From assembly GCA_022826005.1 (NCBI GenBank), contig JAJDVT010000068.1, positions 1 through 43,496 of the forward strand: DNA of 43,496 bases. The letters run 5' to 3'. The notes beneath the pieces are model-generated. The model worked only from the letters and a program-made list of their open reading frames with translations, was not told the origin of the DNA and did no database searches. Position 1 is the stretch's first letter. Each line of letters opens with the position of its first letter. A program made the translations under genes and the position numbers. The stretch comes from Gemmatimonadota bacterium (GTDB lineage Bacteria; Gemmatimonadota; Gemmatimonadetes; Longimicrobiales; Gaopeijiaceae). Of the stretch, positions 566 to 10,077 are shown piece after piece.

Positions 566-605
566 GGTCAGCCGCTGGCGCTAGCGTGGCAGCCCCTCGC
601 TGACC
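566..605. terminator. Possible hairpin at the convergent tRNA/peptidase 3' ends
   Basis: GGTCAGC (566-572) and GCTGACC (599-605) are a perfect 7-bp inverted repeat, with a smaller GCTG/CAGC stem nested inside. It lies just after the tRNA and overlaps the last codons of the minus-strand peptidase gene. There is no T-tract on either strand, so a role as terminator is only suggested by position. Confidence 0.25.
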
Positions 606-2410
606 AGGATTGTGGCTTCACCCGGCGCGAGGTCCAGCCCGGGCAGCTCACCGCCGGTCCAGCCGCGCACGATCGCGCGCACCCGCCCGCTGCTCCGCTC
701 GGTGACAATCGCCATCGGCGCCGATCCGAACGGCTCCAGGGTGAACTGCTCACCGGGGCCGGACAATACCACCTGGCCCAGCTCCCCGTCCGTCGCGGGA
801 TCGTAGGGCACCGCGAAGAGGAAGGCTCCGCCGCCCGTGGCCACCGGGCGGGGCTCGAACCCGAATCCGAAGCGCTGCTGGCCCGCCGGGCCGAACCCCT
901 CCAGCCGGTACGGGCCTTCGACCGCCGGCAGCGTGACCGGCAGGTCGACCAGGAAGGCGGGGTCCAGCGCGAGCTGTCCCGGGCCCGTCCTGCCCCAGAG
1001 CAGCAGGGTGGAGGAAGCGGTGGCGCCCGCCGTGGCCACGGAGCCCGACACGAGCGCAGACTCCTCGTTGAGCCGAAAGTCCATGGCCTTCACGAAGTGG
1101 TAGTCGCTGACCCAGCTGGGGCTGCAGTATCCCATGAAGTCCCTGTAGAGCGTAGCACTTACCAGCCGCTCGCCGTGAAAATCGTAGCCCCAGACCCCGA
1201 TCGAGCCGCCCGAGTACGGGAAGCCCATATCGGGCGCGATCGCTCCTCCGCAGGGAGCGTGGTGCAGTCCGAGATTGTGCCCGATTTCGTGGGCCAGCGT
1301 CTCGGGGTCGGCCCGTCCGACCGCGACCGGATGCCCGATGAAGCCGAGCCCCCGCGCCGTCGTCCCGTAGTCCACGCTCACGGCCCCATAGTAGTAGCCA
1401 CGCTCGCCCTCCGTAACGCGGAGGAAGGTCAGTTCGCCGAGCAGTTCGGACCAGCCGGCCGCCGTCGTGAGGTCCGCGGTGGTCGTGAATCCCTCGTGGA
1501 CGGTCACGGTCATCTCGTTGATGGGCAGCACAGCCCGCGCATGCCGCAGCTGCTCACCCCCGGGCGTCATTCCCTCGGTCCAGTCGTAGACCGCCGCACC
1601 GTTCGGCGAGGCCGTCACCACGGGCACCACCGTCAGGTCGAACCGCGGAACCGCCTGCACCTCGACGGGCAGCCATCCCGTTTTCGGAACCCTGGGACGC
1701 TCCCCCGATCCCACCGGCACGGTGCGCTCCGTGTCCACATCGATGGCCATCTCGGTCCCGGGTCGCATCAGCGAACCCGGGATCACCGCGTCGTAGGACC
1801 AGTCCAGTCTGCCTTCGTCAACTTCCGAAGGCAGGATCTCAGCTTCGGGGTTCATGACGAATGTGCGCACCAGGGTGCTGTTCCGGTAGAACGAAGCCTC
1901 CACGACCGGCTGGTAGTAGCTGTCCCGGTCCCCGGTCACGAAGACCCGCAAGAGCGCCGGGCGCCCCGCGATGAGAGGCACGTCCCCCGAACTGTTCTGA
2001 ACAGCCTGCGTGAAGTAGTAGCCTTCAACGGAGAGACCGACCATCGCCGGGTTGGCCCGCACCCGGGCGTGTTCGGTCAGTCCGGCGTAGGACACCGACA
2101 ACATGGTTTCCCCGAAGCGGACCGCTTCTGCCTTCCCGTCCGGCAGCATGTGCACGATCCGCTGGTCCTCGCTGCTCCATACCGGGCGCGCCCAGGAAGG
2201 CGGCTCCTGAATCAGCTGCCGGTTCTGGTCCACCACCGAGACGGAAAAGCGGGCCTCGTCGCCGATGGTCACCATGGTGTCCGCCGGAGAGACCCGCAGG
2301 TCGGACGGCACCGCGCCGGCCTCCATCCCCAGATCGCCACACCCGGCCAGCACCGGTACCAGGAGCGGGACGCCGCAAGCAGCAAGGGACCTGATCACGC
2401 TCCTATCCAC
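581..2410 (-). CDS. Metzincin-like zinc metallopeptidase lipoprotein, copy B
   Basis: This 609-residue protein looks like an exported peptidase anchored to a membrane by a lipid. The N-terminus has a short hydrophobic stretch and a lipobox LAGC (Cys24). Residues about 35-125 resemble a bacterial Ig-like domain. The catalytic region carries HEIGHNLGLHH, so His374, Glu375, His378 and His384 fit the metzincin HExxHxxGxxH zinc site, with a likely Met-turn at MGYC (Met426). Cys387 and Cys429 could form a disulfide. The family may be close to M66 (StcE-like), but I cannot confirm that. The start is GTG at 2410, which overlaps the stop of the upstream barrel gene by 8 bases; a second in-frame GTG four codons later is possible. 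It is the last gene of the long minus-strand run and is a clear paralogue of the product of 2975-4795. Confidence 0.82.
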   Translation of the reverse strand: MDRSVIRSLAACGVPLLVPVLAGCGDLGMEAGAVPSDLRVSPADTMVTIGDEARFSVSVVDQNRQLIQEPPSWARPVWSSEDQRIVHMLPDGKAEAVRFGETMLSVSYAGLTEHARVRANPAMVGLSVEGYYFTQAVQNSSGDVPLIAGRPALLRVFVTGDRDSYYQPVVEASFYRNSTLVRTFVMNPEAEILPSEVDEGRLDWSYDAVIPGSLMRPGTEMAIDVDTERTVPVGSGERPRVPKTGWLPVEVQAVPRFDLTVVPVVTASPNGAAVYDWTEGMTPGGEQLRHARAVLPINEMTVTVHEGFTTTADLTTAAGWSELLGELTFLRVTEGERGYYYGAVSVDYGTTARGLGFIGHPVAVGRADPETLAHEIGHNLGLHHAPCGGAIAPDMGFPYSGGSIGVWGYDFHGERLVSATLYRDFMGYCSPSWVSDYHFVKAMDFRLNEESALVSGSVATAGATASSTLLLWGRTGPGQLALDPAFLVDLPVTLPAVEGPYRLEGFGPAGQQRFGFGFEPRPVATGGGAFLFAVPYDPATDGELGQVVLSGPGEQFTLEPFGSAPMAIVTERSSGRVRAIVRGWTGGELPGLDLAPGEATILVSEGLPR

Positions 2411-2990
2411 CGGTCAGCTTGATCCCCAATCCAAGTTGCATGGACAGCGCCACGGCGTGGGCCGACCTCGATGTGGTGTTCGCGCTGAGCCATCGATACG
2501 AAACACCGGGGAGCAGAAGCAGCCGCCCGAACGACACCACCGCCCCCGCCCCGACATCGATCCCGGGGCCGAACTGGGGCGCGTCGCCACCCATGCCCGC
2601 TTCCGTTGAACCGAAAAGCACGCCGCCCCGGGCCCAGGGTTGGCCCCGCAGCCCCGGCACGTCCGGTGCCCACTCCGCACCGAGCACCGCGTGATTCCCG
2701 ACGATGGCGGGATCGAGGCCGGTACAGAACCCTTCTTCACAGCCGAAGGCGGTGCGGTAGTAGCCCCCGAACGCCGCCCAGGACGAATTGACTCGACGCT
2801 TGAAGACCACATCCACCGAGATCTTCGGAACGATGTCCAGCGCGGCCCCCGAAGCCGAGTGGCTCCCGACGCTGAGCCCCGTGCGCACCTCGGCCTCGGA
2901 ATCCCCCAGCCACTCCGTCCACTGCCCGGCCAGGGGCCCCGGGAGAAGCGCGGCGCAAGCCGTCAGGACCACCGTCAGCGGGCGCGCCAC
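2403..2990 (-). CDS. Small exported beta-barrel-like protein, copy B
   Basis: This 195-residue protein has no name I recognise. It begins with a cleavable signal peptide (hydrophobic core, LAGQ) and continues as alternating short strands rich in Gly and aromatic residues, as in small outer-membrane barrels. Near the middle is CEEGFCT with Cys84 and Cys89, and then GVSYRW. The protein from 4850-5434 has the same length and layout, with CEEGFCT at the same residue numbers, so the two are paralogues. The start is GTG at 2990: it has GGAG five bases upstream and overlaps the end of peptidase copy A by 16 bases. Its stop overlaps the start of peptidase copy B, so translation is probably coupled on both sides. 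A role as partner, anchor or exporter of the peptidase is inference only. Confidence 0.75.
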   Translation of the reverse strand: MARPLTVVLTACAALLPGPLAGQWTEWLGDSEAEVRTGLSVGSHSASGAALDIVPKISVDVVFKRRVNSSWAAFGGYYRTAFGCEEGFCTGLDPAIVGNHAVLGAEWAPDVPGLRGQPWARGGVLFGSTEAGMGGDAPQFGPGIDVGAGAVVSFGRLLLLPGVSYRWLSANTTSRSAHAVALSMQLGLGIKLTGG

Positions 2991-4795
2991 GGCACTCCGT
3001 CGCTGACCATGACCTCCGTATCTCCGTCTGCGAGCGCCATCGATCCGTTCCAGTCGCGCAGTATCGCACGCACCTGCCCTGAACTCCGGTTGATGACGAT
3101 CGCCATCGGGCTTGTGCTCGATGGGCCCAGAACGAATTCGCCCTCCGGGCCCGACAGAACCACCCTGTCCAGCTGTCCGTCCCGGTCCGGGTCGTAGGGG
3201 ACGTGGAAGTGGAAGTGCCGGCCGCCATGCTCCACGGGCAGGGGCGTGAAGTCGAAGCCGAACCTGAGCACGCCGCCGGGACCGAATCCCTCCAGCCTGT
3301 AGGGACCTCCCTGGACGGGGACGCTGGGCCTGGCGTCGACCAGGAAGGCGGGCTCGATGACCATTTCCCCCTCGCCGACGCCCCCCCAGAGCATGATCGT
3401 GCTCTCCTCGGGGATGGCCTCCCAGGCCGCGCGGGCCGGCGCGGACTCCACGAGCAGCCGCCGGTTGAGCGCGATGCGGAAGCTGTAGTCGCTGATCCAC
3501 GCCGGGTCGCAGTAGGTCATCAGGTCGTGGTAGCCGGGGTGGATGACCGCACCCGCCTCCACGTCGAAGCCGTGTATGCCGATGGTGCTGGGATCGTACG
3601 GGTAGTTGAAATCCAGACCACCCGGGACGCCCAAGGGACAATTGACGTGCCGAAGACTCATGTTGTGGCCGATCTCATGGGTGTACGTGCCGGTACTGTT
3701 GGTCCCGACGCTCACCGGAATCGTGAAGTTGCCGAGACCCCGAAGCCCCCCGCGATACGGCAGTATGGTGGTACCGTAGTAGTAGCCCTGGCGTCCCTCG
3801 AGTTCCCAAATGGCCGTGACCTCCCGGTGCCAGAGGGTAAATCCCGATACTTCTCTCAGATTCACCGAGGTGTAGACCGGCTCATGAACGGTGACCTTCA
3901 TCTCGCCGATCGGCATGACCTTTTTTGCAAACCGGAAGAAGGCGTGGTCTTCCGTCATCCCATCCGCCCACTCGAGCACGCCCTGGCTGGAGGCGTAGAG
4001 GGTCTGAATCATCGGAACGATGGTCTGATGGTACAGCGGCATTTCCACCACGTTGAAGCTCATCCTGCCCTCGGCCGGGAACCTGAGCTGGCTGCCCGGG
4101 GCATGCGGCACGATACCGTCCGGGTCGAGCTCCACCACCATCTCGACCCCCGGCTGAATCACGGATCCGGGGATGGCTGCATTGTTCGTCGCGCCCAGAA
4201 TCCCTTCCTGCGGTTCCGTAAAGACCTTTCCTCCCAGCGGGCTGAGGGCGGCGGTGTGGACGACTTCGCCGTCGAGGTAGAAGGTCGCGCGGGCGCGGGG
4301 CTCGAAGAAGCCGATCTCGTCACCCACGGGGAAGACCCGCAACGCGGCGTCTCGTCCTGCGATCAGCGGGATATCTCCACGCATGTTCTGGGCACCCTGG
4401 GTGAGGTACGCAGCAGCAGCCGACAACTGGAGGTCGAGCGGGTTGGTGCGCACGAATACCGAGCCGGTCACCCCGGCCACCTCGGCGGATACCCGCACCT
4501 CGGCACCACCCAACGCGGTGAAGGTGCCGTCGGGCTCGAGTTCGATGCTTCCGCGGGGCGCGACCACCCAGGTTGCCGGCGCCCAGTCCGGCGGCCCCGG
4601 GATGACGTTCCTGTCTTCGTCCAGTACCGTGATCCTCAGACGGGCCTGGTCCCCCTCGGTAACGATTGTGTCGCGCGGCGCGATCAACAACGTCTCCGGC
4701 ACGACCGCAACGCTGGCGAGGTCGTCGCAGCCGACCAGCGCCAGGGCGGCCAGACACGCACCTGCCCGGCAGTACCTGCTAAACAGTTCCGACAT
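2975..4795 (-). CDS. Metzincin-like zinc metallopeptidase lipoprotein, copy A
   Basis: This 606-residue lipoprotein (lipobox LVGC, Cys23) is a full-length paralogue of copy B, with the same Ig-like region after the lipobox and the same middle domain (AQNMRGDIPLIAGR versus VQNSSGDVPLIAGR). The zinc site reads HEIGHNMSLRH (His373, Glu374, His377, His383), so the usual Gly of HExxHxxGxxH is Ser380. The Met-turn MTYC (Met426) and the cysteines Cys386 and Cys429 are kept. I chose ATG 4795 because it has a strong GGGAGG site and puts the lipobox at a normal distance; an ATG at 4846 would add 17 residues. Exported peptidase activity is predicted; the substrate is unknown. Confidence 0.82.
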   Translation of the reverse strand: MSELFSRYCRAGACLAALALVGCDDLASVAVVPETLLIAPRDTIVTEGDQARLRITVLDEDRNVIPGPPDWAPATWVVAPRGSIELEPDGTFTALGGAEVRVSAEVAGVTGSVFVRTNPLDLQLSAAAAYLTQGAQNMRGDIPLIAGRDAALRVFPVGDEIGFFEPRARATFYLDGEVVHTAALSPLGGKVFTEPQEGILGATNNAAIPGSVIQPGVEMVVELDPDGIVPHAPGSQLRFPAEGRMSFNVVEMPLYHQTIVPMIQTLYASSQGVLEWADGMTEDHAFFRFAKKVMPIGEMKVTVHEPVYTSVNLREVSGFTLWHREVTAIWELEGRQGYYYGTTILPYRGGLRGLGNFTIPVSVGTNSTGTYTHEIGHNMSLRHVNCPLGVPGGLDFNYPYDPSTIGIHGFDVEAGAVIHPGYHDLMTYCDPAWISDYSFRIALNRRLLVESAPARAAWEAIPEESTIMLWGGVGEGEMVIEPAFLVDARPSVPVQGGPYRLEGFGPGGVLRFGFDFTPLPVEHGGRHFHFHVPYDPDRDGQLDRVVLSGPEGEFVLGPSSTSPMAIVINRSSGQVRAILRDWNGSMALADGDTEVMVSDGVPWRAR

Positions 4796-4849
4796 TCCCG
4801 CCTCCCTTTTCCTGCGTTCCATCGCACCTGGCTTCGCGGTGACCATGCC

Positions 4850-5434
4850 TCAACCCCCCCACAGCTCAATGGCGATTCCGAGATGGCCCGACAGCGCGAC
4901 CGCGTATGCGGTACTCGCGGGCTTGTTCGCCTGCATATAGCGGTAGGACACTCCCGGGAGGGCCGACACCCGGCCGAAACCCAAGCGGAGACCCGCGGCG
5001 ATGTCGTAGCCGAACCCGGTTTCGGGGTCCGCGCCCAGTGTGCCCGCCCGGGTTGTCCCGACGAGGAGTCCGGCGCGAAGCCACGGCCCCACGGCCACTC
5101 CGAGGTCCGGTACCCACTGCGCACCGAAGGCTCCGTGGTTCCCCACGATCGTAATGTCACGATCGGTGCAGAATCCCTCCTCGCACCCGAAGGTCGTCCG
5201 GTAGAATCCGCCGAAGACCGACACGGTGGGGATCACTTCCACTTTCAACACCGCATCGAAGGACGGCTTCGGAACTACGTCCAGCTTTGCAGCGGACTCC
5301 GAATGGTTGCCGACGCTCATCCCCCCGCGCACCTCTACCGCAATCCGGCCCGGAAAACCGGGCATCTGGGCGGCTGCCGACCCCTGGATCAGCGCACAAC
5401 CCGCAATAGCTACAAACAAGGCCCGCCCGATCAT
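4850..5434 (-). CDS. Small exported beta-barrel-like protein, copy A
   Basis: This protein of 194 residues has a signal peptide (core ALFVAIAGCALIQG, likely cleavage near AAAQ), followed by repeated short amphipathic strands. It is the paralogue of the product of 2403-2990: the strings SVGNHSES, LDVVPK, FGGFYRTTFGCEEGFCT and LPGVSYRY line up with no large gaps, and Cys84/Cys89 are at identical positions. The ATG at 5434 forms an ATGA overlap with the stop of the DUF1080 gene, so this gene is coupled to the sugar operon. It ends 54 bases before the start of peptidase copy A. I predict a small outer-membrane barrel. No known family name can be given from sequence alone. Confidence 0.75.
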   Translation of the reverse strand: MIGRALFVAIAGCALIQGSAAAQMPGFPGRIAVEVRGGMSVGNHSESAAKLDVVPKPSFDAVLKVEVIPTVSVFGGFYRTTFGCEEGFCTDRDITIVGNHGAFGAQWVPDLGVAVGPWLRAGLLVGTTRAGTLGADPETGFGYDIAAGLRLGFGRVSALPGVSYRYMQANKPASTAYAVALSGHLGIAIELWGG

Positions 5435-6285
5435 CGTTCGCTCCACTCCCGAATCTTGATGTTCCGAAACCACACCGGGTCTCCGTGGTCCTGAAGCCCT
5501 ATGTGCCCGGCGGGGGCCATTCCGTACCCCGGCCATTCACCAAATTTACTGCGCTGAACCAGCGCCCGCCACTCGTCGCTCCACAGCTCGTAGGCCAGGA
5601 TGCGGACGCCGTTCATCCAGTGTTCCACCTGCGCGCCCCGCACCATGATCCTCACCTGGTTCCATTCGCCTACCGGCCGGGTGACGTCCTCGCTCGGGGC
5701 GTGAAGCGCGTAGTTGGACCCCGCCGAGGTCTCGGGCGTGGACCCGTCGCGGTGGCCGGCGTTGTCGAGAACCTGCATCTCCGGTCCCGTCCAGTAGGGC
5801 TGGACCTCCTCCTCCGTGACCCGGTAGAAGATGCCGCTGTTGCCGCCCTCCGAGACCCTCCACTCCAGCGCCAGCTCGAAGTCGGCGTACTGGTCGACCG
5901 TGATGATCGTACCACCGCGGCCGCGTGGGGTGAACACCAGCGCCCCGTCCCGCGCCTGCCAGCCGGGGGGGACATCGTCGCGCCGGTAGCCCCGCCAGCC
6001 CTCGAGAGTACCGTCGAAGAGCAGCTTCCATCCGGCCGCCTCCTCTTCCGCGGTCAGGCGGTTCGGCGGGGGGTCCTGGGCCGCTGCGCCAAGAGACTCT
6101 CCGGCCGCCCGCTCCTCAGCCATGGCGCTCGCGTTCGGTGTGCCGCCCATCGGGCCGCATCCCTGCAAGGCACCGGTCCACGCCAGCACCATCGCCGGCA
6201 TCAACCCGGCGAGCCAGGCCTGCTGGAGGCGTGGCACCCGTTCCCGCGTCGAGCCAGGGACCGAAGAATCCGAAATCGAGGGCAT
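5431..6285 (-). CDS. DUF1080 family 3-keto-glycoside hydrolase lipoprotein
   Basis: The 284-residue product matches the DUF1080 (3-keto-disaccharide hydrolase) family: GWKLLFDGTLEGW at residues 85-97, then GGNSGIFYRV and GPEMQVLDNAGH, and a C-terminal GHIGLQDHGDPVWFRNIKI that is highly typical. These proteins have a concanavalin-like jelly-roll fold, and characterised members cleave glycosides already oxidised at C3. A hydrophobic stretch followed by LQGC (Cys43) suggests a lipoprotein. The ATG at 6285 has GGAGGAGG just upstream. It lies 24 bases after a sugar isomerase-like gene and overlaps the next barrel gene by ATGA. Together with the Gfo/Idh/MocA oxidoreductase and the TIM-barrel isomerases it points to a 3-keto-sugar catabolic operon. 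Confidence 0.88.
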   Translation of the reverse strand: MPSISDSSVPGSTRERVPRLQQAWLAGLMPAMVLAWTGALQGCGPMGGTPNASAMAEERAAGESLGAAAQDPPPNRLTAEEEAAGWKLLFDGTLEGWRGYRRDDVPPGWQARDGALVFTPRGRGGTIITVDQYADFELALEWRVSEGGNSGIFYRVTEEEVQPYWTGPEMQVLDNAGHRDGSTPETSAGSNYALHAPSEDVTRPVGEWNQVRIMVRGAQVEHWMNGVRILAYELWSDEWRALVQRSKFGEWPGYGMAPAGHIGLQDHGDPVWFRNIKIREWSER

Positions 6286-6309
6286 CGTGCCTCCTCCGTT
6301 TCCAGCGCC

Positions 6310-7317
6310 TCACTGGTCGCGGCCCGCGAAGGCCGCGTCAAAGGCTGTGTCCGACGGCGGAAAGGCAAGCTTGCGCACGAACGCGCACGCTTCCTCCGCT
6401 CCGTGTTCCCTGTCCATTCCCGCATCCTCCCACTCGACCGACAGCGGGCCCCGGTAACCCGCGCGGTTCAGAGCCCGCATTACCGCTTCGAAGTCCACCC
6501 GGCCCCGTCCGAGCGACCGGAAGTCCCAGCAGCGCCGCGGATCTCCGAAGTCCGTGTGGCCGCCGAAGAGCCCGGCCTCCACCGGTCGCCGGGACCACCA
6601 CACATCCTTCATGTGGACATGATGGATGCGGTCCGCAAATCTCCGTATGAAGTCGACGTAGTCCACCCCCTGGTACGCAAGGTGGCTGGGGTCGTAGTTG
6701 AGTCCGAAGGCAGGGTGCTTGTCAAGCCGTTGCAGCGCCCGCTCGGTCGTGACGATGTCGAAGGCGATTTCGGTGGGGTGGACCTCCAGGGCGAAACGCA
6801 CCCCTTCGGCCAAGAAGGTGTCCAGTACCGGACGCCAGCGGTCCGCGAATTCACGAAAACCGTCGTCGATCCGCTCGGGCGGGACGGGAGGGAAGGAATA
6901 GAGCAGGTGCCAGATCGGGCTGCCGGTGAAGCCATTCACGACCTCCACGCCGAGCCGGGCCGCCGCCCTCGCGGTGTCTTCCATCTCGCGGGCCGCGCGG
7001 TGGCGGACCCCCTCCGGGTCGCCGTCGCCCCACACCCGCGCCGGGAGGATGGCCTGGTGGCGCGCGTCGATCCTGTCGCACACGGCCTGGCCAACCAGGT
7101 GATTGCTGATGGCGTGAACGGCGAGGCCGTGCCGGGCGAGCAGTTCGTGGCGGCCGTGGCAATAGGCCGGATCGGCGAGGGCGGACTGAACGTCGAAGTG
7201 GTCGCCCCAGCAGGCGAGTTCAAGGCCGTCGTAGCCCCAGGCGGCCGCCTTCGCCGCGAGGACCTCCAGCGGCAGATCGGCCCATTGGCCGGTAAAGAGG
7301 GTGACGGGACGGGTCAT
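6310..7317 (-). CDS. Sugar phosphate isomerase/epimerase (AP endonuclease 2-type TIM barrel)
   Basis: This 335-residue protein begins [29 protein letters not shown], the usual opening of xylose isomerase-like TIM barrels. Likely metal ligands are Glu178 ([11 protein letters not shown]), Asp209 and His212 (NYDPSHL), His235 (HHVHMKD) and a Glu in SVEWED near residue 283. No signal peptide is seen, so it should act in the cytoplasm, probably isomerising or epimerising a keto-sugar. Its ATG overlaps the stop of the Gfo/Idh/MocA gene as ATGA, which indicates translational coupling between the oxidoreductase and the isomerase. The exact sugar is unknown. Confidence 0.88.
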
Positions 7318-8558
7318 GGGCGCGCTCCGGGGTTGTCGGCCCGGTCTTCGACTGCACCCGCGGCGGGCGCGACCGGGACATCCGCCGCTCCCGGGTGCGC
7401 CAGCTCGGTCCAGCGCCCCCGCGCTGCCGCCTCAAGCACCCCGGCGATGAATCGAAGTCCGCGGAGACCATCGTTGTGGTCGGGGAAATCGCGGTCCAGC
7501 GGATCAGGCTCGGCCCCGGCAACGCCGGCACCGATCACCCGGCCCGCGGACCGGTAGATGTTGGCGAACGCTTCGATGAAACCCTCGGGGTGCCCTGGCG
7601 GAAGGCGGGTCGCGTGCCCGGCAGCCGCACACAGGTACCCGCTCCCGCGGGTCAGCCGCTGGCGGGGTGCTTCAGGAAAGAGCAGGTCGAGCACGTTGGG
7701 ATCCTCCTGCCGCCAGACCAGCCCCGCCCGCTCCCCGTAGACCCGCAGCGCCAGCCCGTTTTCCTCGCCGGCCGACACCTGGCTGGCGTAGCAGACCCCC
7801 CGCGCGCCCCCCGCGAACCGCACGAGGATGCCCGCGTCGTCCTCCATCACCCGGCCCGGCACCAGGCTCGCGAGGTCCGCGAAAACCGCCTCGGTCTCCA
7901 GGCCGGTCGCATAGCGCACGAGGTTGTGCAGGTGCGATCCGATGTCGCCGAGCGCCGAGGAAGGCCCCGCCTGCGCCGGATCCTGCCGCCAGCCGGCCTG
8001 CTTGTGGCCGGTCCCCTCCAACCGGGTGGAGAGCCATCCCTGCGGGTACTCGGCGACGACCTTGCGCACCGCTCCAAGCTGGCCCGACCGCACCAGGTGG
8101 CGGGCCTCCTTGACCATCGGATACCCGGTGTAGTTGTGGGTAAGCGCGAAGGTGAGCCCGGTGCGCTCCACCTCGCGGCAGAGCGCCTCCGCACCGGCCA
8201 CGCTCCTCGTCATCGGCTTGTCGCAGACGACATGGATGCCCCGCCCCAGAAAGGCGAGCGCGACCGCCCGGTGCAGATGGTTGGGGGTGACGATGGTCAC
8301 TGCATCGATGCGACGATCCGCGCCCAGCGCGGCCTCTGCTTCCGCCATCTCCTCGAAGGTGCCGTAGACGCGTCCCGCATCCAGCCCCAACGCCCGCCCC
8401 TGTTCCCTGGAACGCTCAGGGTGCGACGCGAAGGCGCCCGCGACGAGTTCCCACTCCCCGTCCAGCGCGGCAGCCATGCGGTGCACCGCCCCGATGAATG
8501 CACCGGGGCCGCCGCCCACCATGCCGTAGCGGAGCTTGCGTCCGAGGTGAGGGTTCAC
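7314..8558 (-). CDS. Gfo/Idh/MocA family NAD(P)-dependent oxidoreductase
   Basis: This 414-residue protein has a Rossmann fold with GGGPGAFIG (residues 15-23), the strand VTPNHLH, the family Lys in CDKPM (Lys114, the EKP motif as DKP), and GDIGSHLHN (Asp205, His209), which supplies the other usual catalytic residues. Family members oxidise or reduce sugars and cyclitols at a ring carbon, often at C3 in glycoside degradation. It has no signal peptide, so it is cytoplasmic. The start is GTG at 8558 with a GGGGGTG upstream. It sits between an MFS transporter and a TIM-barrel isomerase, which fits uptake followed by oxidation and isomerisation. Confidence 0.9.
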
Positions 8559-8595
8559 GCTGGCACCCCCTTTCGCAGGCCGGGGCCGGGGCCCC

Positions 8596-10077
8596 TCAGG
8601 ACAGCCGCTCCGCCCGGTACCCGCCCGAGCGCCGTTCTTTCAGGTACAGCACGCCGAAGACCAGCACCAGAAACCCGCTCAGCGGAACTATGTAGCGGAA
8701 CGAGATCAGTCCCCCACGGTTCTCGGCGGGACCCAGAATCCCCTGCGCCCGGTCCGCGGCCGGCGAGGTGGACCCCGACGCGATGATGCCCCGCAGCGCG
8801 TTGGCGGTCTCCACCGGAGGGAGGGCTTGCCCGGCCTCGTAGCTCTCCAGCACTCCGGTGACCAATCCCAGCGCCGACCGCAGGTCGTCCCCCTCCGGAC
8901 CTGGAGTCCTCAGCGACTGCGAGTCCAGCGCGCCCTCCGCTTCCGCGAGCACCGCGACCACCTGGTCCTCATCGAGATCCGCGTGTGCGGCCCGGTCAGC
9001 GATCTCCCCCATCAGCGGCGAAGTGACCAATCCGACCACCGCCATCCCCACCGTCCCCATGAGCCCCAGTCCGAGCGCACCGCTCCTCGGGATCCGCTCA
9101 GAGACGAAGCCGAGCATCGTGGGCCAGAAGTAGCACACGCCGACCGCAAATACCGTCGCCGCCGCGATCACCGTCGCGGCCGAACCCCCGTAGCTGAGCC
9201 AAAGGAGCCCGGCACCGGAGAGTACCGCGGAAGCCAGGAGGATGCCCGTGGGCGACAGACGGTGGACGACCGGGCCGGCGCAGAGGCGCAGGACCGCCAT
9301 GATTCCGTTGATGTAGACCAGCACGAGGATGCCCAGCATTCCGCCCGCCTCCAGCACCGCAGGCAGCCACCGGTTGGGGCCCAGCTCGAGCGAGGCCGTC
9401 ATCGCCATGCACAGGAGCATGAGCAACATCAGCGGCGTCATCAGTGTGGCACCGAACATCTGCCCCATCGATACCCCGGAGCGGACTCCTTCGGTGACGG
9501 GGAAGCGTTGCCCCAGCAGCAGCAGACCGTACGCGGCAGTCGGGATGACGATGAGCGCCACCTTGACCTGCCAGGAGGGCACGCCAACTGCATCCAGTCC
9601 CCATGCCGCCAGTCCGCCGAGGACGATCCCGCCCGGGAACCAGACGTGGAACTGGTTCAGCTTGACCGTCTTGTTTTCCGGGTAGAGCGCGGCCACCAGG
9701 GGGTTGCAGGCGGCTTCGACCAGTCCATTGGCCATGGCGATGATCAACGCGCCCGCAAAGAGCGTCCAGAAACCGGTGGCAAGGATCAGAATCAGCGCGC
9801 CGGCCAGGTGGCCGACAAAGGCCATCCGTACCAGAAAGCGCATCCCCAGCGTGTCGCAGAAGGGCGCAAAGAAGACCTGGGAGACCGCAAATCCCCAGAT
9901 CGCCGCGCCGCCGATCCACCCCACCTGCGCGTTGTTGAGGACGAACTCTCCCTTGAGGTCGAACATGATCGCGCCGATGGTCGCAAAGGCCACCGAGGTG
10001 GCGATCAGCGCCACGCAGCTGCCGAGGAAGAGTCGGCCGGCGTGCACTCCGCCGTTCCCGCCGGGTCCGCCATTCAT
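8596..10077 (-). CDS. MFS transporter with a long soluble segment before the last helix
   Basis: This 493-residue protein carries about 12 hydrophobic helices. The first eleven are closely packed. Between the eleventh helix (VGMAVVGLVTSPLMG) and the last (YIVPLSGFLVLVFGVLYL) lies a hydrophilic stretch of roughly 100 residues rich in Ala, Glu and Asp, which is unusual for MFS carriers. The ATG at 10077 has AAGGAG nine bases upstream. It is 37 bases from the Gfo/Idh/MocA gene, and by position is likely the sugar or sugar-derivative importer of this operon. The substrate cannot be read from the sequence. Confidence 0.85.
   Translation of the reverse strand: MNGGPGGNGGVHAGRLFLGSCVALIATSVAFATIGAIMFDLKGEFVLNNAQVGWIGGAAIWGFAVSQVFFAPFCDTLGMRFLVRMAFVGHLAGALILILATGFWTLFAGALIIAMANGLVEAACNPLVAALYPENKTVKLNQFHVWFPGGIVLGGLAAWGLDAVGVPSWQVKVALIVIPTAAYGLLLLGQRFPVTEGVRSGVSMGQMFGATLMTPLMLLMLLCMAMTASLELGPNRWLPAVLEAGGMLGILVLVYINGIMAVLRLCAGPVVHRLSPTGILLASAVLSGAGLLWLSYGGSAATVIAAATVFAVGVCYFWPTMLGFVSERIPRSGALGLGLMGTVGMAVVGLVTSPLMGEIADRAAHADLDEDQVVAVLAEAEGALDSQSLRTPGPEGDDLRSALGLVTGVLESYEAGQALPPVETANALRGIIASGSTSPAADRAQGILGPAENRGGLISFRYIVPLSGFLVLVFGVLYLKERRSGGYRAERLS

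Follow-up and report, generated by a model that had tools for sequence, protein, structure and literature searches.

StcE-like metzincin lipoproteins genetically linked to a predicted eight-stranded outer-membrane barrel in Gemmatimonadota

StcE, a mucin-type glycoprotease that enterohaemorrhagic E. coli secretes (MEROPS M66; PDB 3UJZ), is the closest described counterpart of the peptidases considered here. The small barrels that accompany them share their fold with the eight-stranded outer-membrane proteins, which include the OmpA transmembrane domain, NspA, OmpX/Ail, OmpW and PagL. Outer-membrane barrels also serve in export, and Slam-type exporters combine a large barrel with a periplasmic TPR region. 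Dedicated partners of StcE-like glycoproteases have been described as well, as in Acinetobacter, where CpaA is accompanied by the membrane-associated CpaB (PMC4713064, PMC7542363). While StcE-like metzincins, OmpA-like barrels and a protease with a dedicated partner are each already known, a literature search returned no description of a lipoprotein metzincin paired with a small barrel, nor of M66 peptidases in Gemmatimonadota, and the strict pairing reported below appears to be undescribed in the literature searched.

The window analyzed is the whole of contig JAJDVT010000068.1 (43,496 nucleotides), part of a 4.85 Mb draft genome (GCA_022826005.1, hereafter G000), and the locus has its named relatives in Gemmatimonadetes and Longimicrobiales MAGs. 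On the minus strand, positions 581-6285 hold five close-set genes. In order of transcription, these encode a DUF1080/3-keto-disaccharide hydrolase (5431-6285; PF06439, E=2.7e-54), the small outer-membrane barrel protein B1 (4850-5434; 194 aa, with a signal peptide and a CEEGFC loop motif), the StcE/M66-like metzincin lipoprotein M1 (2975-4795; 606 aa), the second barrel B2 (2403-2990; 195 aa, GTG start) and a second lipoprotein of the M1 type, M2 (581-2410; 609 aa, GTG start). M1 is the "upstream" (M_U) and M2 the "downstream" (M_D) orthologue, and we use B and M for the two families. The DUF1080 gene overlaps B1 by four bases (ATGA), 54 bases separate B1 from M1, and the M1/B2 and B2/M2 junctions overlap by 16 and 8 bases. 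The reading frames of B1, M1, B2 and M2, with their coordinates, GTG starts and overlapping junctions, had been set out in an earlier note on this DNA and all agree with the sequence on re-examination. So do the features it gave as shared within each pair, namely CEEGFCT at identical positions in both barrels (within GCEEGFCT, from residue 83 on), and the lipobox, Ig-like region and zinc site in both peptidases. Resemblance within the pairs is far beyond chance, with B1 and B2 50% identical over 195 aa (E=1e-61) and M1 and M2 41% identical over 600 aa, their whole length (E=2e-146). On the same strand beyond the DUF1080 gene lie genes for a xylose-isomerase-like TIM barrel (6310-7317), a GFO/IDH/MocA oxidoreductase (7314-8558) and an MFS transporter (8596-10077), and this cluster (5431-10077) is syntenic in those congeners where the region is present. 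At the other end, a tRNA-Pro (GGG) gene occupies positions 486-560 of the opposite strand, 20 bases beyond the end of M2, and positions 59-424 appear by eye to encode the C-terminal part of a homocysteine S-methyltransferase, cut at the contig start.

The M1 model (mean pLDDT 90.3) contains two Ig-like domains (residues ~31-120 and 121-251) followed by a metzincin domain (~251-454). Its best PDB match in a Foldseek search is StcE 3UJZ (E=1.4e-12, 590 columns), to which it aligns with a VIA Z of 11.4 and an rmsd of 7.7 over 345 residues. M1 thus has a StcE-like overall fold, although the low global TM (0.34) indicates that the arrangement of the domains differs between the two proteins. The Peptidase_M66 profile PF10462 scores M2 at 33 bits (E=4.2e-8), above its cut-off of 20.6, and M1 at 13.5 bits, below it; the profile matches all 47 M proteins at E<=0.1 (best 7.9e-12), with the M1 and M2 matches covering the zinc-site region only. 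Searches against NCBIfam gave metzincin matches that were sub-threshold only. M proteins combine the zinc site and the Met-turn of the metzincins: the zinc-ligand histidines and catalytic glutamate of HExxHxxxxxH (H, E, H, H) are invariant in 47/47, and a Met-turn, D-x-M-x-Y-C, is kept in all 47 some 50 residues further on. The usual metzincin glycine position varies among Gly, Ser, Asn, Thr and Arg, and in M1 it is a serine (residues 373-383, HEIGHNMSLRH). As in bacterial lipoproteins, a signal peptide is joined to a lipobox cysteine, which is present in every one of the 47 (C23/C24 in the window) and mostly preceded by a small residue, with an aspartate at +3 in 42. Because the zinc ligands, catalytic glutamate, Met-turn and lipobox cysteine are kept throughout the family, M1 and M2 are probably active lipoproteins. 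M-like peptidases without B are very numerous, and outside the genus nearly all of these have another architecture. G000 itself carries about 14 M-like genes, about a dozen without a barrel (loci L179-L188), most of these in longer proteins; one 1966-aa frame (C79) has two catalytic domains. The StcE-like peptidases of this genome are a large lineage-specific expansion. In most other M-like proteins the resemblance is limited to the core (~residues 116-605), embedded in a longer protein. A deeper profile found no additional barrel next to any of the other peptidases of G000.

For B, an AF2 model built from 41 homologues (mean pLDDT 90.3) consists of eight long strands following the signal peptide, which places the family with the eight-stranded outer-membrane barrels of the OMP_b-brl clan. 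The model resembles OmpA and NspA (Z 17-18) and PagL (Z 14.8), and the Pfam outer-membrane barrel PF13505 matches 16 of the 41 members (best 3.5e-11). Structure prediction had been proposed in the earlier note as a check on the barrel assignment, and it returns a clear OmpA-like fold. By the usual topology of such proteins, the conserved segments H-S-x-S-A-A-x-L and GC-x4-C would make up the first two loops on the extracellular side. Outer loops vary more than any other part of most outer-membrane proteins. Here conservation in these two segments roughly equals that in the strands, whereas one periplasmic turn is variable. Such a conserved outer face suggests that B meets a fixed partner or ligand there. 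No histidine or serine is invariant among the 41 B proteins, H44 and H100 being missing in some, and we rejected a lipid A enzyme of the PagL/PagP type on the lack of invariant catalytic Ser/His residues. The Pfam matches of B include no Slam-type family, and a protein of 194 aa with eight strands and no extra domain does not have the build of one.

A profile made from the two barrels of the window recovered members from 21 of 22 congeners and, sporadically, from other genera, and a 41-sequence profile was then run over 395 genomes of the phylum. Scores fall on two sides of a wide gap, with core barrels at 136 bits or more and all others at 78 or less. Given this clean gap, and with no M near any of the 10 generic barrels checked (45-76 bits), we rejected the idea that B belongs to a generic, widespread outer-membrane protein family. 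The linkage count covers the surroundings of 55 core barrel copies in 50 genomes. An M gene touches 54 of the 55, lying directly upstream on the same strand in 47 and directly downstream in seven. Three of the 47 upstream genes are incomplete: in G093 and G100 the contig starts within M, and because its C-terminus is there we rejected these two as barrels without M, and in G021 the gene is truncated. The G021 remnant (L107 10331-10915), in a single-contig genome, encodes the last ~190 aa of M and overlaps the barrel by four bases. All 11 barrels absent from the first search likewise adjoin M. The sole core barrel with no M nearby or anywhere in its draft genome is that of G063 (a MAG 89% complete). 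By eye, this barrel (L116 3383-3985) adjoins a divergently transcribed TonB-plug-like gene. B can thus outlast its partner, as G063 (no detectable M) and G021 (M truncated) show. Viewed from the peptidase, the single M of four genomes (G046, G049, G184 and G197) is the one beside B, and outside the genus all 22 of the top-scoring full-length M proteins (>570 bits) come from genomes that encode B and lie within the B cluster. Full-length lipoprotein M outside the genus is thus nearly confined to the barrel cluster, in a survey that is partly circular because its profile was trained partly on B-linked M. Hosts of the pair are marine, sponge-associated and other Gemmatimonadota, and no plasmid-borne copies were found. 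The suggestion that barrel and peptidase are working partners, made in the earlier note from the window, is strongly supported by this conserved neighborhood, where the barrel is almost never without its peptidase; the note had named a barrel usually occurring apart from the peptidase as grounds for refutation, and the genomes show the contrary.

The two genes are also closely joined. An upstream M usually meets B in a four-base overlap of stop and start (ATGA), and exact four-base overlaps make up 23 of 34 M-to-B junctions (with start codons chosen by script), from which we infer coupled translation of M and B. Across 15 genomes, distances between B proteins correlate with those between M_U proteins at r = 0.84, and the partial correlation controlling for the isomerase and oxidoreductase is 0.80, a value reached in 0 of 2,000 permutations. 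The partial correlation of B with M_D is 0.61, and with the DUF1080 protein 0.35. B therefore co-diverges more strongly with M than with the neighboring sugar genes, though with n=15 genomes such co-divergence between neighboring genes can also reflect shared recombination.

The order MFS transporter, GFO/IDH/MocA oxidoreductase, isomerase-like TIM barrel and DUF1080 gene, followed by the M/B block, holds throughout the genus and also in two other genera, represented by G044 and G047. The cluster is probably a 3-keto-glycoside catabolic operon, as DUF1080 proteins are 3-keto-glycoside hydrolases in other bacteria (PMC9007349), and it could be hypothesized that glycoprotein cleavage is linked to the use of 3-keto-sugars. 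This fixed order would also be expected if B and M were passengers in a sugar-degradation cluster with no functional contact, an explanation that we consider very unlikely and reject as a full account, because the pair is retained elsewhere with no sugar-cluster gene at all and because the co-divergence of B with DUF1080 is weaker than that with M. In those other genomes the pair sits among unrelated genes (cytochromes, S9/M14 peptidases, amino-acid genes), which indicates a unit of its own that became attached to the sugar operon in one lineage. The head-to-tail order in the window and the 50% and 41% identities between copies had been read in the earlier note as a tandem duplication of a barrel-peptidase unit. 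That reading is wrong, and a recent duplication that made both pairs is extremely improbable. In the M tree (a quick tree and a smaller, careful one), peptidases upstream and downstream of the barrel form two separate groups that both include other genera; M1 falls in the upstream group and M2 in the downstream one, and forcing M1 and M2 of the window sub-clade together lowers the log-likelihood by 134 units and is rejected under the model used (AU p = 0.00046). The two are ancient paralogues, and their clades both predate the genus. Throughout the genus, and in other genera as well, the genes occur in the order M-B-M. The barrels were duplicated later and in one sub-clade only (G000, G005, G008, G020 and G022), where G022 retains M-B-M-B-M with two upstream-type M genes. 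Given these clades and the arrangement in G022, the block most likely started out as M_U-B-M_D, within which M_U-B was duplicated; G000, G005, G008 and G020 then most likely lost the first M_U, which leaves the order B1-M1-B2-M2 seen in the window. Only a barrel-bearing unit was duplicated, and that unit was M-B instead of B-M. In the wider phylum, too, what is conserved is a peptidase gene followed by a barrel gene, with the M_U orthologues of M1 directly followed by a barrel, and M1-B2 is the ancestral peptidase-to-barrel pair of the window.

Our preferred reading, which we hold to be probably correct, is that the locus encodes a conserved two-component outer-membrane peptidase module in which B and M form a complex and M cleaves cell-surface proteins. 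M would be a StcE/M66-type metzincin held by a lipid anchor, its two Ig-like domains leading into the zinc peptidase domain, and B, an eight-stranded barrel, would be produced in step with it by coupled translation. Within the outer membrane, B would act as the fixed partner and M as the tethered peptidase, with B either positioning M or docking its substrate; M may face the cell surface and cleave proteins, perhaps glycoproteins, there. The outer-membrane anchor envisaged in the earlier note may be the role of B, as one possibility among several. The strict pairing, the overlap of M with the B that follows it and the fact that M is a lipoprotein would also suit a B that delivers M, as a biogenesis or export partner in the manner of Slam or CpaB and not as a permanent companion, and CpaA/CpaB is a precedent for an exported StcE-like protease with a partner of its own (PMC4713064). 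We think this unlikely: many congeners have extra full-length M copies with one B, and a pure export role is made less likely by an eight-stranded lumen too narrow for a folded peptidase and by the comparable OmpA barrel, which was shown not to bring RcsF to the cell surface (PMC7553776). B might instead be a client that M processes, or a surface inhibitor or immunity protein that restrains M and protects the cell. Near-obligate adjacency and overlapping genes would fit this too, as would short loops with a conserved CxxxxC, but most M copies are tolerated without B, and the barrel persists both in G021, with its truncated M, and in G063, which lacks M, so that we find such a role quite improbable.

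With the two-component module as the preferred reading, the B-M pair points to an undescribed surface peptidase system, strictly linked and co-diverging, across several families of a little-studied phylum that is frequent in sponges and sediments. It raises a testable question, namely what a barrel too narrow for a pore does for a lipid-anchored peptidase, and with the GC-x4-C barrel as a genetic marker, one functional class can be picked out of a very large expansion of peptidases. A more specific and doubtful proposal is that B is a new type of minimal, dedicated display partner, an eight-stranded barrel putting a single, specific lipoprotein peptidase onto the cell surface; if so, Gemmatimonadota would possess a self-contained surface-protease module independent of the Slam, type II and type IX routes.

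Compared with known systems, M shares with StcE an Ig-like domain placed before the metzincin domain, but it is a lipoprotein with an additional N-terminal Ig-like domain and a barrel partner, has about 15% sequence identity to StcE, and often carries Ser, Asn or another residue at the usual glycine of HExxHxxG. Like CpaA with CpaB, it is a StcE-like glycoprotease relative with a dedicated membrane-associated partner; however, CpaA is released by type II secretion whereas M is lipid-anchored, and the literature describes CpaB as a chaperone associated with the membrane, not as a barrel of the outer membrane. B has 11-14% identity to the known eight-stranded barrels and differs from them in the GC-x4-C of its second extracellular loop and in being genetically bound to a peptidase, while, unlike PagL, it has no invariant His or Ser. 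The pairing of an outer-membrane barrel with a lipoprotein recalls Slam and its surface lipoproteins (PMC5449769, PMC7857515), from which B is set apart by its far smaller size, its eight strands and its lack of a periplasmic domain.
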